From contig NZ_JAPIVK010000008.1 in assembly GCF_026183675.1 (NCBI RefSeq), positions 1 through 64,000 on the forward strand: a stretch of 64,000 nt of DNA, written 5' to 3'. This DNA is from Microbulbifer halophilus. Lineage in GTDB: Bacteria > Pseudomonadota > Gammaproteobacteria > Pseudomonadales > Cellvibrionaceae. Made by a program: the position numbers and the translations under genes. The notes under the pieces are model-generated. The model was not told the DNA's origin. It searched no databases and saw nothing but the letters and a program-made list of their open reading frames with translations. Each line of letters opens with the position of its first letter. Position 1 is the stretch's first letter. This document shows positions 44,362 to 49,373 of the stretch, piece after piece.

Positions 44362-46896
44362 TCAATTCAGGAAGGTGGACATGTCATCGCAAGCTGTGGC
44401 GAACGCCTGCACGAACCGCTCGACCTCTTCGCGGGTAATGACAAGTGGGGGCTGAATGCGAATGACGGTGGAACTGTTCGCCGTGACGAATGTGAGTATG
44501 CGGTGATCGTTGTTCAGCTTGGTGACGAACCGCATGCAGAACATCTCTGCCAGCGACTCCTCCATACGATCCATGGCGGTGGTTAGATGCTCTTTCACAT
44601 CGTCCGGGAAGAAACGGTAAGTCAGATGCCAGTCGCCGGGCAGGCGCGTGCCGAACTCCCGCGCACACGCCTCCACGGCGCCGGTGAAGTCGTTGTCGAA
44701 CTGAACGGCCAGCATCAGTCCGCGGCCGCGGATCTCACTGACAAATGGGTAGCTCGCTGCAACCCGCTCCAACTCGGACTTGAAATAGCCTCCCAGTTTT
44801 TCCGCATGTTCGGCCAGCCCCTGCTCGCGGATACCCTCGATGGTGGCAAACCCCGCCACACTCGCCAGGTTGCAGCCCCCGAAAGTGGAGGTGTGGGCGA
44901 GAAAGCGGTCGGCGGTGCCATAGGCCGCGTCCCAGATATCCGTCCGACTGAGTGTGGCGCCGATGGGAATCAGGCCGCCGGACAGGGACTTGGATAGCAC
45001 CAGAATGTCCGGCTCGATGCCTTCCCATTCACAGGCGAACAGCCGGCCGGTTCGGGCCATACCCGTCTGGATTTCGTCGACGACGAGCAGGGTTCCGGTT
45101 TCGTGGCAAATGCGCTGAACGTCGGACAGGTAGCCGAGCGGCGGCACGTGTACCCCGCCTTCGCCCTGGATGGGTTCGACGATAAAGGCACATACGTCCC
45201 CCGATGCCAGTGCTTCGCGCAAGGCCCCCGAGTCCCCGAACGGCACACTCTCGCAATCCGGGATCAGCGGCCGGAAATGCTCCCGGTGTTTCTCTCGGCC
45301 CGTGACGGAAAGCGCGCCCAGCGTCTTGCCGTGGTAGCTGTTGTCGGCGTAGACGAACCGGGGCCGGGGATTGGCGGCCCGGGCCTGCTTCAGTGCCGCT
45401 TCGACGGCCTCGGTGCCGGAATTGCTGAAGAACACTCGCTCCATGGCGCCGGGCGCTATATCACAAAGAGTTTCCGCAAGCTTCGCTGTCTCCTGGGGCA
45501 GCGACACGTACTGCACGAAGTTCGGCCCCAAGCGGCCGATGTATTCCTGAACGGCTCCGGTAACGCACTGCGGGTTATGTCCCAGATTGAGGCAGCCGTA
45601 ACCGGCGACCATGTCCAGATAGTCCCGGCCCTCCGTGTCCGTCAGTGTGCAGGCCTCCGCGCGTTCGAAAACCTGGTCGCAGTGCATGTAGTGAAGGAAG
45701 TCTGCCATCATCGGGTTGATGTGGCGACGGTAGCGCTCCAGAGTCCGGGTCCGGCGACCTTCACCGGTATCCACGCCGCGCTCCCGGTCCATGGGACCGC
45801 GCGCGGGTGCCGACTTGAAGGTCCGGTGATAACGGCGCAGGCCGGCGACCAGCTCCCCGTTGAGACGCTCGCCGTAGGTTGCCAGCGGGAACGCCTCGAA
45901 TCCGTGCCGCTCGGCGATTTCACCGCTCTCCAGTACCTTTTGCGGCGGCAAGTCGCGACCGATGGAGTAGCACTCCGCACGCCCTTCCAGCGCCAGCACC
46001 ATGGTTTCCGCCAGGCAGCCATTGATCTGCTGTTTGATGGCCATGCTCAGGGACTCGCCGCCGAGTTTGATGCGGGGCGTCCCCGTCATGTGACCGCCGT
46101 CGATGACTATCACATCGTTGCGCCTGGGCTCTGCGGGCCTGATGTCTCGGGGCAGGGCAATGTCCATGACGATGGAACCGGGCAAAAGCCGCGCTTCATC
46201 GATCACACTGCCCGAGGATGTTGCGGAAACGAGAATTCTGGTGCGCTCATAGACTGCTTCCATACTGTCGAACAGCTGCACCTGTCCGTCCCGGGCTTCC
46301 GGCAGGTACGCCATAAGGCGCCTGCTGTCCGCTCCCGGCCGGTGCACCAGATCCAATTGGCACCCCATCTCCAGCAGCAGCTTGGCCAGCGCCAGAGAGA
46401 TGGAGCCCGGATAACCCACCACGGCAACGCGTGCCTGTGCCGGGTCCAGCCGCAGCCAGTCAAAGACCTGGTGCAGGCCCCGGTAGGCCGCGTAGGCGGT
46501 CAGCGAATTGCCGCTGGTTACGGGCAGACTGGCGCGCTCGGCGGTGTGAAGGCCGCGCCGGCCAATAATCGACGTGAATCCTCCGAGACCCACCAGCTCT
46601 GCACCCTGCTCGCGCATGGCGTCGATGCCGGTGAAGATCCGTTCCTGCACCTCCCGCGCTGACGTCAGCATTTCTTCCGCGGTCAGCGGCAGGTAGTGGA
46701 CAACGCCTTCGGCCGTAGAGCCCGCGGGCGAGCGAATGGTGCCAAAATCCAGGAACGGCACCAGGTTCTCTCGGCGCCAGATCGCCGGGTCGTAACCAGT
46801 TTGCAGGTCCCGGGATCCGCGCTCGACGAGATCGAGCATTTTCACATATCGCTTCAGACTGACGGAGGTTGGGTGCGCGATAAATCCGAATTTCAT
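44362..46896 (-). CDS. pigE: PigE homologue: acyl-reductase-like domain fused to class III aminotransferase
   Basis: 844 residues. Residues 1-370 resemble cyanobacterial acyl-ACP reductase: [44 protein letters not shown](P)-site [36 protein letters not shown] and [15 protein letters not shown]. Residues 400-844 are a PLP aminotransferase: [63 protein letters not shown] and PLP lysine in [13 protein letters not shown]. The whole order and many blocks match prodigiosin PigE as I recall it (853 residues). PigE aminates 3-acetyloctanal on the way to 2-methyl-3-amylpyrrole. ATG 46896 shares one base with the upstream stop (TGATG), and GAGGG lies six bases before it. Partner gene is the PigD homologue. 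The tambjamine enzyme TamH has a similar plan and is the main alternative. Confidence 0.88.
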
Positions 46897-49373
46897 CACA
46901 AGCCCTCATATTCGGGGTTGGAGGCGTTATGGTCGATTCCGTCGGGGGACGCGACGGGTGCCCGTTCATGTGTCGGGCTCTCTCGTTGCCAACCCTTGGC
47001 GGTGATGAGGCTCATACCGTCGCCTTCGTTGTTGTGTGCCATCACCACGGAGAAAAGATTGATCTGGCCGCGTGTGCGCACGGCTTTGTCGAGCAACTCC
47101 CGGTCGAAAGACTCCAGCGTTCGAGAGACAACATGCAGGTCGCCGATATCGCCTTCCCAGTCCGGCTCGAACAGGTTCACCAGCCGCATCTGCCGCGAGG
47201 TGCGGTTAAACAGGACGCGCTCCTGGTACGTGTTGATGCTCGAATGGCCGCCGTTGAGAAAATAGAAAATGGTAATATTCTTGTCGCGAATGCGGCCGGG
47301 GTAACTGATGGCATTTTCGATAAGGCTCGGGAGGATGTCCGGCACAATGGCCTTGGCCCCATCTCCGATAAAGGCCAACAGGTTGGTGGGACTCGTGAAG
47401 GCCAGGCTCGTTGTCGCCTGCAGGGCATCGCCCATGAGTGCCCGGCCATACCAGCCCGAGAAGCCGCGACGGGTGCGGGCCAGGTTGCGCACGGCCGATA
47501 TGCCGCAACGACCTACGTCGTAAATGCCGGTGTAGTCGTAACCATCTTGAACCACCACCTGCTCGATCAGGCTGTTGAGTCGGGCGAAGAAGTAGTTGGG
47601 CGTCATGGGTATTCGGGGAATACGGCACACCACGTCGGATGGAGTTTCGCGAAGGCTGTCTATCAACGTGAAACGACGGTTGCGAAGCTCGTCAGACACG
47701 GCCAGATGCCGATCCACGTACTCCAGGAAAGTACGCAGCGCCAGCACTATGGGGACATCGGTGAACGGCGAAATATGTCCCGGGTTGTCCGTCAACTGAA
47801 CAATATTGATTTTGCGCTGCAACCGGCCTTCGGGAAACGGGGTCGCCACTTCAGCGAGCTTGCTCTTGAGAAAGAAAAGACACTGGTCATCGGTGCCGTT
47901 GATCTTGTCGTTGGTGTGCAGGTAGTTGTAAACGCGAGCACTGTAACCGTAGACCGCCAGCGTTCCCAGATAGTTGCGGTTGACCACTCCCTCGTGATAC
48001 TTGGCCACAGCACCGGGATGGGTCAGGGAGTCCACCAACGCGACACCGGAACGGCGCGCGATGGACAGCACCAGCCTGTGCTCCTCCTCGGTCATGGCAC
48101 CGCACTGCCAAACCACACGATCCGGCCCTTCGTTAATGATCTCCATGACCTGATCGAGTGATGCCTGTGTTTTGTCATCCAGTGCCGGTTTTGCCCCCTC
48201 GACTACCTGCGGCAATTCAATATCTACCGGTGTGCTTGCGTGCAGCACCTGCTGGGTCGCCAGCACGACCACTGGCCCCTCTCCGGCGTCATAGAGCTCC
48301 GCGACGCGGCGCAGGTCGTCCGCCATCCGCGCCGGGTCCGCCATGTATACATGGGGAATGCGCCGTGCCTTGAGCACATCACGTGTATCCTCCTCCCGGG
48401 TTACCGTCCCCTGAAATGCGAACCATTGACCGGAGCGGTTTTCGGCGCAGACGATGATCCCCTTGGCTCTGGCTTCGCGCATATTGGCGATGGTGCCCTT
48501 GAACTCGTCGATCATACCGCTGGTGACAATAATAATGAATGGCTTTTTGTATAGCTGCCAGTTGGCCAGGGCGCCGCAGGCCAGGCCGTGTTCATTCGGA
48601 GCGCGCAACATAAGTGCACCGACCTGTTTTGCTTTGCGCTCCAAATGCACGATCAAATTCGACACCAGTGAGCCGGTGAAATAAAACCCCAGCCATTCAC
48701 TGCCGGAACGGCTGGTAAAGAATTGCGCGAGAAAGGTCCCCATCGTATTGCCTGGAGGAGGTTTTATCTGCGGCTTTACCTGGCGGTTGGTGTAGCTCAT
48801 CTCGAAGAAATCCATCCACAGGCACAAAAGCTCCGCCTGAAGGACTGTGCGTTCCGTCGGCAAGACACATTCGATATACTCCATGGGCTGATAGCGCATT
48901 TTATGGTCCAACCGCCGCCGGAAAACCGCCGTTGAAGATGGTGAACAGAAAACTGGAACTTTAAGCTCCTTGAGCTGCGAGTAAAAAAACGCCAGCCGGT
49001 GATCCACCTCCTCGGCAGTCACATTGTCGAGCGCCGGGTCGGCATAATCGATTAACACCATTCCAGCCTGGAAACCACCTGTCTCTCCCGAGCTCGTATG
49101 GGTTGTCACTTTTTTTGTGATTTTTTCGAGGTTGTCGCTCTGAATTATTTTTATTGGAGTCCTGTCTTTGCGTTGTTTCAGGAAAGTAACGGACTTCCGC
49201 TTGATATTCTCGTAAACGTGGCTATGCACGGGAATACGAGTGCCGTGTTTGATGTCTGCATCAATATCCACTGGTTGAAGGGGACCTCTACAAACGTCAT
49301 TAATTACACCCGCTGCTGCTTCAAAAAAAGCCTGGCTCCGTGTCACTACTATCACACCAATGGCAACGTTCAT
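46896..49373 (-). CDS. pigD: PigD homologue: ThDP-dependent acetyl-transferring (Stetter-type) enzyme
   Basis: 825 residues. In prodigiosin synthesis PigD decarboxylates pyruvate and adds the acetyl unit to the beta carbon of 2-octenal. Seen: an N-terminal extension not found in simple ThDP enzymes ([37 protein letters not shown]). The PYR domain has [17 protein letters not shown], whose Glu would activate the cofactor. A central domain follows ([20 protein letters not shown]). The PP domain carries [22 protein letters not shown] and [18 protein letters not shown] (GDG...N metal and diphosphate motif). ATG 49373 has GGAGGG six bases upstream; 49424 is rejected. Coupled to pigE by TGATG. HapD of Hahella and SeAAS of Saccharopolyspora are known relatives of PigD. 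No pigA-C or pigF-N genes are in the window. Confidence 0.84.

Follow-up and report, generated by a model that had tools for sequence, protein, structure and literature searches.

A pair of coupled genes, pigD and pigE, lies in a 64,000-nucleotide stretch of the Microbulbifer halophilus genome (contig NZ_JAPIVK010000008.1, positions 1 to 64,000), which we refer to as the window. In the prodigiosin pathway of Serratia and Hahella, their counterparts belong to the MAP branch, the pyrrole half of the pathway. We propose that the window pair, probably gained horizontally, is a two-gene module that has separated from the prodigiosin pathway and makes a free 2-methyl-3-alkyl-1-pyrroline (H2MAP type, 5-methyl-4-alkyl-3,4-dihydro-2H-pyrrole), and we assign this reading a probability of about 0.6. 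There is roughly an even chance that the pyrrole half has gone independent in the fuller sense, the pyrroline being released as an end product with its own role, for example as a signal, a defence compound or an exchanged building block.

Both proteins scored far above the equivalog cut-offs of their families. PigD matched NCBIfam NF053552 at 1259 bits (cut-off 950) over model positions 1-802 of 807, and PigE matched NF053554 at 1353 bits (cut-off 850) over positions 1-836 of 837. PigD has the fold of thiamin diphosphate (ThDP)-dependent enzymes with Glu, GDG and Asn all present, motifs which we take to serve in the ThDP cofactor site. In PigE, C294 aligned to Cys296 of the 4ppm PigE chain and K636 to the lysine of that chain, and both residues are invariant in 12 aligned PigE rows. 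K636 is presumably the pyridoxal phosphate lysine, an assignment made by motif. The start of pigE and the stop of pigD share one base. The sequence comparisons confirm that PigD and PigE are genuine with intact catalytic residues, as the preliminary description of this DNA had claimed. The pair resembles the MAP branch of Serratia and Hahella in the identity of PigD and PigE, the fused reductase-aminotransferase, the gene order and the catalytic residues. It differs from that branch, which also includes PigB, in standing alone in its insert and in a host genome without PigB and PigC.

The host is a Microbulbifer with a 4.66-Mb assembly of 109 contigs (completeness 99.56%, contamination 0.01%). 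A Hahella PigB protein query found no match in it, whereas three of three control genomes matched at 486-667 bits; with the PigB hidden Markov model (HMM), the best match was 21.9 bits against a cut-off of 850. PigC was likewise absent above the cut-off of 1300, the best HMM match being 189.9 bits to part of an 820-amino-acid (aa) frame, and all three control genomes exceeded that cut-off (1473-1543 bits). Weak matches to the Hahella PigC protein occur in 47 of 48 genomes of the genus; from family kinship, these are as expected for phosphoenolpyruvate synthase. A PigI query, run without a positive control, gave 37 matches. Among these, the top 17 (29-37% identity) sit in open frames of nonribosomal peptide synthetase (NRPS) size (1011-3425 aa), ligase-sized frames (508-674 aa) matched at 24-27%, and no PigI-like stand-alone ligase was found by this query. 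A complete prodigiosin cluster elsewhere in the genome is thus unsupported by the PigB, PigC and PigI searches; no genome-wide search was made for PigA, PigF, PigH or PigJ. As regards PigB and PigC, the two most important genes, pigD-pigE is an orphan pair. The earlier statement that the pair is alone, and the genome search it called for, are borne out for pigB and pigC; for PigA, PigF, PigH, PigJ and other bipyrrole genes, the result is that no remnant was found in the non-coding ends of the insert.

In the trees, the prodigiosin type, including the window PigD and PigE, was split from a second PigDE type at 100/100. The position of the window proteins within the prodigiosin type received middling support (83/91 and 85/93 for PigD, 93/91 and 85/79 for PigE). 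Their nearest relatives are the pig clusters of Massilia, Rugamonas, Hahella, Zooshikella and Ca. Thiosymbion, with 57-61% identity for PigD and 65-73% for PigE, the latter range omitting three Massilia rows. Unlike the window, these clusters carry pigB and pigC in nine of nine loci (L009-L016 and L018). Of the columns that do not vary among the 15 other rows of prodigiosin type, the window retains 173 of 181 (PigD) and 294 of 303 (PigE), a count that favours rows having close sisters in the set. Two duplicate Zooshikella rows, a row split between contigs (G428), the second-type rows and Streptomyces melanogenes were left out of it. Identity to the Methylocystis outgroup is 53.2% for the window PigD (49.6-57.0% in seven others) and 63.2% for PigE (58.8-64.6%). 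This divergence lies inside the range of pig-cluster enzymes, and we count it in favour of our proposal. We read the pattern as retained function under slightly relaxed constraint rather than as the decay of a relic. The suggestion of a new pathway was too broad: a wholly new one is not shown, since the enzymes group with those of the prodigiosin type and retain almost every position that is fixed in it.

The orphan form is rare in the genomes surveyed. PigD above the cut-off was found in 1 of 48 genomes of the genus, 1 of 144 of the family, 6 of 390 of the order and 1 of 369 of the class, the window genome being within every count. A contig scan with two peptide patterns, which was not exhaustive and returned no Serratia loci, yielded 21 loci (10 of prodigiosin type, 10 of the second type and one Streptomyces protein). 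All 10 prodigiosin-type loci contain pigB, pigC, pigF and pigH, and nine contain pigI, the tenth being cut short by the contig end. Both pigB and pigC are also present in each of the four plasmid records opened out of six (two Methylocystis iwaonis strains, one Thioclava and one Pseudoalteromonas xiamenensis). The same holds for the five other genomes of the order above the PigD cut-off, although in G428 the genes are split across two contigs and two of the five are Zooshikella loci already counted (identical proteins). Overall, all 17 distinct relatives of prodigiosin type that were examined carry pigB and pigC alongside pigD. Literature searches of titles and abstract starts gave no description of an orphan pigDE pair among the matches listed, with subscription literature thinly covered. 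A term search of a paper on Microbulbifer gene clusters found neither pyrrole nor PigE (PMC12538549).

The chemistry that we propose draws on papers on the Serratia and Hahella enzymes, and the present analysis contributes the protein identities, the residues, the lack of PigB and PigC, the insertion site and the conservation. The MAP branch runs via a thioester intermediate, and Escherichia coli lysate containing PigE converts the thioester to H2MAP (PMC8341465). The reductase domain of PigE resembles acyl-acyl carrier protein reductase with a conserved Cys296, and PigE responds most to ornithine and arginine, one of which is likely the amino donor (PMC8341465). According to another paper (PMC7065143), the PigB substrate is 5-methyl-4-pentyl-3,4-dihydro-2H-pyrrole, which accumulates in a pigB mutant, and H2MAP is not oxidised spontaneously in air. 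The Microbulbifer genotype resembles that of a pigB mutant with the ligase missing as well, so the predicted end product is the pyrroline or a chain homologue.

In the proposed pathway, PigD would decarboxylate pyruvate and transfer the acetyl group to a medium-chain 2-enoyl thioester at its beta carbon, fatty-acid metabolism being the source of the thioester. The N-terminal domain of PigE would then reduce the 3-acetyl-acyl thioester to the aldehyde through its Cys, and the C-terminal domain would aminate the aldehyde, with ornithine or arginine as the probable donor. The amino ketone would cyclise by itself to the pyrroline. Without PigB, no oxidation to the pyrrole would be expected, and without PigC, no joining to a bipyrrole. 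The acceptor had previously been described as an enal; it is most likely an enoyl thioester, and the N-terminal domain of PigE is a thioester reductase with a conserved Cys (PMC8341465 and the alignment). Of the product suggested earlier, a free alkyl pyrroline or pyrrole, the pyrroline probably stands; the pyrrole is not expected, since PigB is lacking and H2MAP is not self-oxidising (PMC7065143). Transfer, expression, chain length, export and role are the parts of our proposal that we infer.

The pair lies in an insert between a DUF6515 gene and the arginine decarboxylase gene speA (Table 1). Homology to the DUF6515-speA spacer of relatives ends at about 49942, just after the DUF6515 terminator, and restarts at about 44222, within the conserved leader of speA. 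In eight of eight Microbulbifer relatives fetched, the DUF6515 gene adjoins speA without pigDE, with 207-257 bases between the aligned ends. The genes for carboxynorspermidine synthase and NspC follow in seven of the eight, and the eighth stretch stops at a contig end. A speA match was present in 47 of 48 genomes of the genus, the host included. The polyamine genes are thus old neighbours of the insertion site and probably incidental to pigDE. The adjacency noted in the preliminary description is real, and its relevance is doubtful for this reason. A weak polyamine link is possible, as PigE favours ornithine and arginine and SpeA uses arginine. Two DUF6515 genes, at 37709-38356 and 49999-50757 of the window, bracket the polyamine block, as they do in six of the eight relatives.

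Table 1. Positions of the pigDE insert and adjoining features in the window
Feature	Position	Strand	Basis or remark
Whole insert, about 5.7 kb, pigD + pigE + leader	44223..49941	.	Ends estimated by local alignment, accurate to within some tens of bases
pigD, ThDP-dependent acetyl transferase (PigD type), 825 aa	46896..49373	-	NCBIfam NF053552; ThDP-enzyme fold; ATG at 49373 after GGAGG
pigE, acyl-thioester reductase + class-III aminotransferase, 844 aa	44362..46896	-	NCBIfam NF053554; 4ppm match
AT-rich pigD leader within insert	49374..49941	-	No pig-gene remnant or sigma-70-like site found
Non-coding tail of insert, pigE stop to conserved speA leader	44223..44361	-	No terminator-like site found
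Terminator-like hairpin past DUF6515 gene, left edge of insertion site	49947..49964	-	Similar sequence in relatives
DUF6515 gene, conserved left neighbour, not in pathway	49999..50757	-	Adjacency in relatives
speA, arginine decarboxylase, conserved right neighbour, probably not in pathway	42158..44158	-	Followed by carboxynorspermidine synthase and nspC

No pig-gene remnant was detected in the leader or tail below an E value of 0.20, using 173 open reading frame (ORF) translations from 12 pig-cluster loci; these ORFs were called mechanically and some are surely not genes. Compared with 108 DNA loci, the leader and tail matched only the window's own copies. A mobile-element origin is unsupported, as no tRNA or Rfam family was found near the insert and no repeat pair of at least 14 bases at its two ends. 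The G+C content at third codon positions (GC3) is 0.674 in pigD and 0.769 in pigE versus 0.795-0.86 in six neighbouring genes, and in pigD it is lowest in the first hundred codons (0.44). Another ORF of the window (5303-8482) also has a low GC3 of 0.669, so base composition gives no more than a weak hint of foreign origin.

Several observations weigh against our proposal. The window end branches were flagged as long (0.57 for PigD and 0.42 for PigE), the window deviates at eight PigD and nine PigE columns that are otherwise fixed, the third most among 16 rows in each case, and its PigD is further from Methylocystis than six of the seven others. The orphan form is present in one genome only, so conservation of the two-gene state is not demonstrable. 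The leader contained no promoter-like site where 1.5 were expected by chance, judged by the sigma-70 consensus only. Purified PigE with NAD(P)H yielded no H2MAP (PMC8341465), and some component of the lysate therefore seems to be needed. Finally, an unlinked oxidase unrelated to PigB could convert the pyrroline to the pyrrole.

The pyrroline may instead be an intermediate, taken further by unlinked enzymes of this genome or by a neighbouring prodigiosin producer that imports it. Other contigs carry many adenylation domains in very long open frames of NRPS size, which would fit the former, and the latter is consistent with a Serratia pigD mutant that uses supplied H2MAP (PMC7065143), which makes exchange between cells possible. 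We consider this explanation unlikely: the insert lacks genes of the other pathway arm, searches elsewhere in the genome yielded no PigB, PigC or PigI-like ligase, and nothing ties the NRPS-like genes to pigDE. Alternatively, the same chemistry could use another acyl chain or amine donor to give a different alkyl pyrroline or amino ketone, speA being relevant through arginine. The preferential response of PigE to ornithine and arginine (PMC8341465) agrees with this, as does the position of speA, which follows pigE directly in the same orientation; no terminator-like site was found separating the two. That speA holds the same place without pigDE in all eight relatives, that its conserved leader is kept beyond the insert and that most fixed PigD and PigE positions are retained make such a shift improbable.

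The long branches, the leader without a sigma-70-like site and the restriction of the orphan pair to one genome, when 17 of 17 distinct prodigiosin-type relatives have pigB and pigC, would also suit a functionless passenger or a relic of a lost prodigiosin cluster. Both ORFs are intact, however, no remnants of other pig genes were found at either insert edge, and the divergence of PigD and PigE is within the range of pig-cluster proteins, so we regard a relic as very improbable. A detached module making the free pyrroline is our preferred interpretation.

Two related systems differ from the window pair. TamH of the tambjamine pathway in Pseudoalteromonas tunicata is, by its published description (PMC6667630), a reductase-aminotransferase akin to PigE; it yields an open-chain amine, and the table of that paper lists no pigD counterpart. 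The second PigDE type, which occurs in Pseudomonas, Hahella ganghwensis and other Microbulbifer, likewise consists of a PigD-PigE pair, and neither pigB nor pigC was seen in the stretches examined, but its PigD and PigE are only 34-35% and 52-54% identical to those of the window, form a separate clade and are set among sulfur-carrier, acyl ligase and dehydrogenase genes. The window pair is not of this type. Its PigD exceeds the family cut-off while those of three second-type Microbulbifer fall below it, both proteins lie outside the second-type clade (100/100), and the insert has room for only pigD, pigE and the leader, with no linked ThiF, JAMM or ThiS.

The second type comprises 12 distinct loci, from three other Microbulbifer (L005-L007), Hahella ganghwensis (L019) and Pseudomonas (L020-L026 and L028), L027 being L007 again. 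Its conserved cluster contains ThiF, which in L005 is truncated where the locus ends, together with a JAMM peptidase, a ThiS carrier, a CoA-transferase fusion, an acyl(-AMP) ligase, an acyl-CoA dehydrogenase and a major facilitator superfamily transporter. ThiS terminates in Gly-Gly in five of five loci checked, and the Pseudomonas acyl-CoA dehydrogenase is only 27-30% alike. We regard the cluster as a candidate pathway in which PigD could receive its enoyl thioester by way of the ligase and dehydrogenase; the sulfur carrier suggests that the product, perhaps of pyrroline type, may contain sulfur. Literature searches, partly imprecise, turned up no description of this cluster. In Streptomyces melanogenes, a PigD-like region (L029:9902-12184, 38-39% identical) lies beside a long ORF resembling a polyketide synthase by eye, and PigE was not found in that locus.

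Two other regions of the same contig were noted. About 27 kb from pigDE, at 76.6-81.3 kb (L008:12593-17305), are genes for a LuxR-type autoinducer receptor, an AMP-binding ligase, a haem-oxygenase-like iron enzyme, a class II aldolase and a membrane subunit; this locus looks biosynthetic. Within the window, positions 3266-14800 hold a two-partner secretion (TPS) pair, consisting of an ShlB-type transporter (3266-5242) and a TPS-domain exoprotein (5303-8482), beside a 2040-aa ORF (8678-14800) with no Pfam match.

A PigDE match alone should not be taken as evidence of prodigiosin, and the second PigDE type suggests that there is more than one use of PigDE chemistry outside prodigiosin. If our proposal is true, a well-known pigment pathway would have been split, leaving two genes that suffice on their own to convert pyruvate, an intermediate of fatty-acid metabolism and an amino acid into a chiral alkyl pyrroline. 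Such a module would be a simple case in which to examine how segments of natural-product pathways gain independence, and it would offer a compact tool for making pyrrolines.

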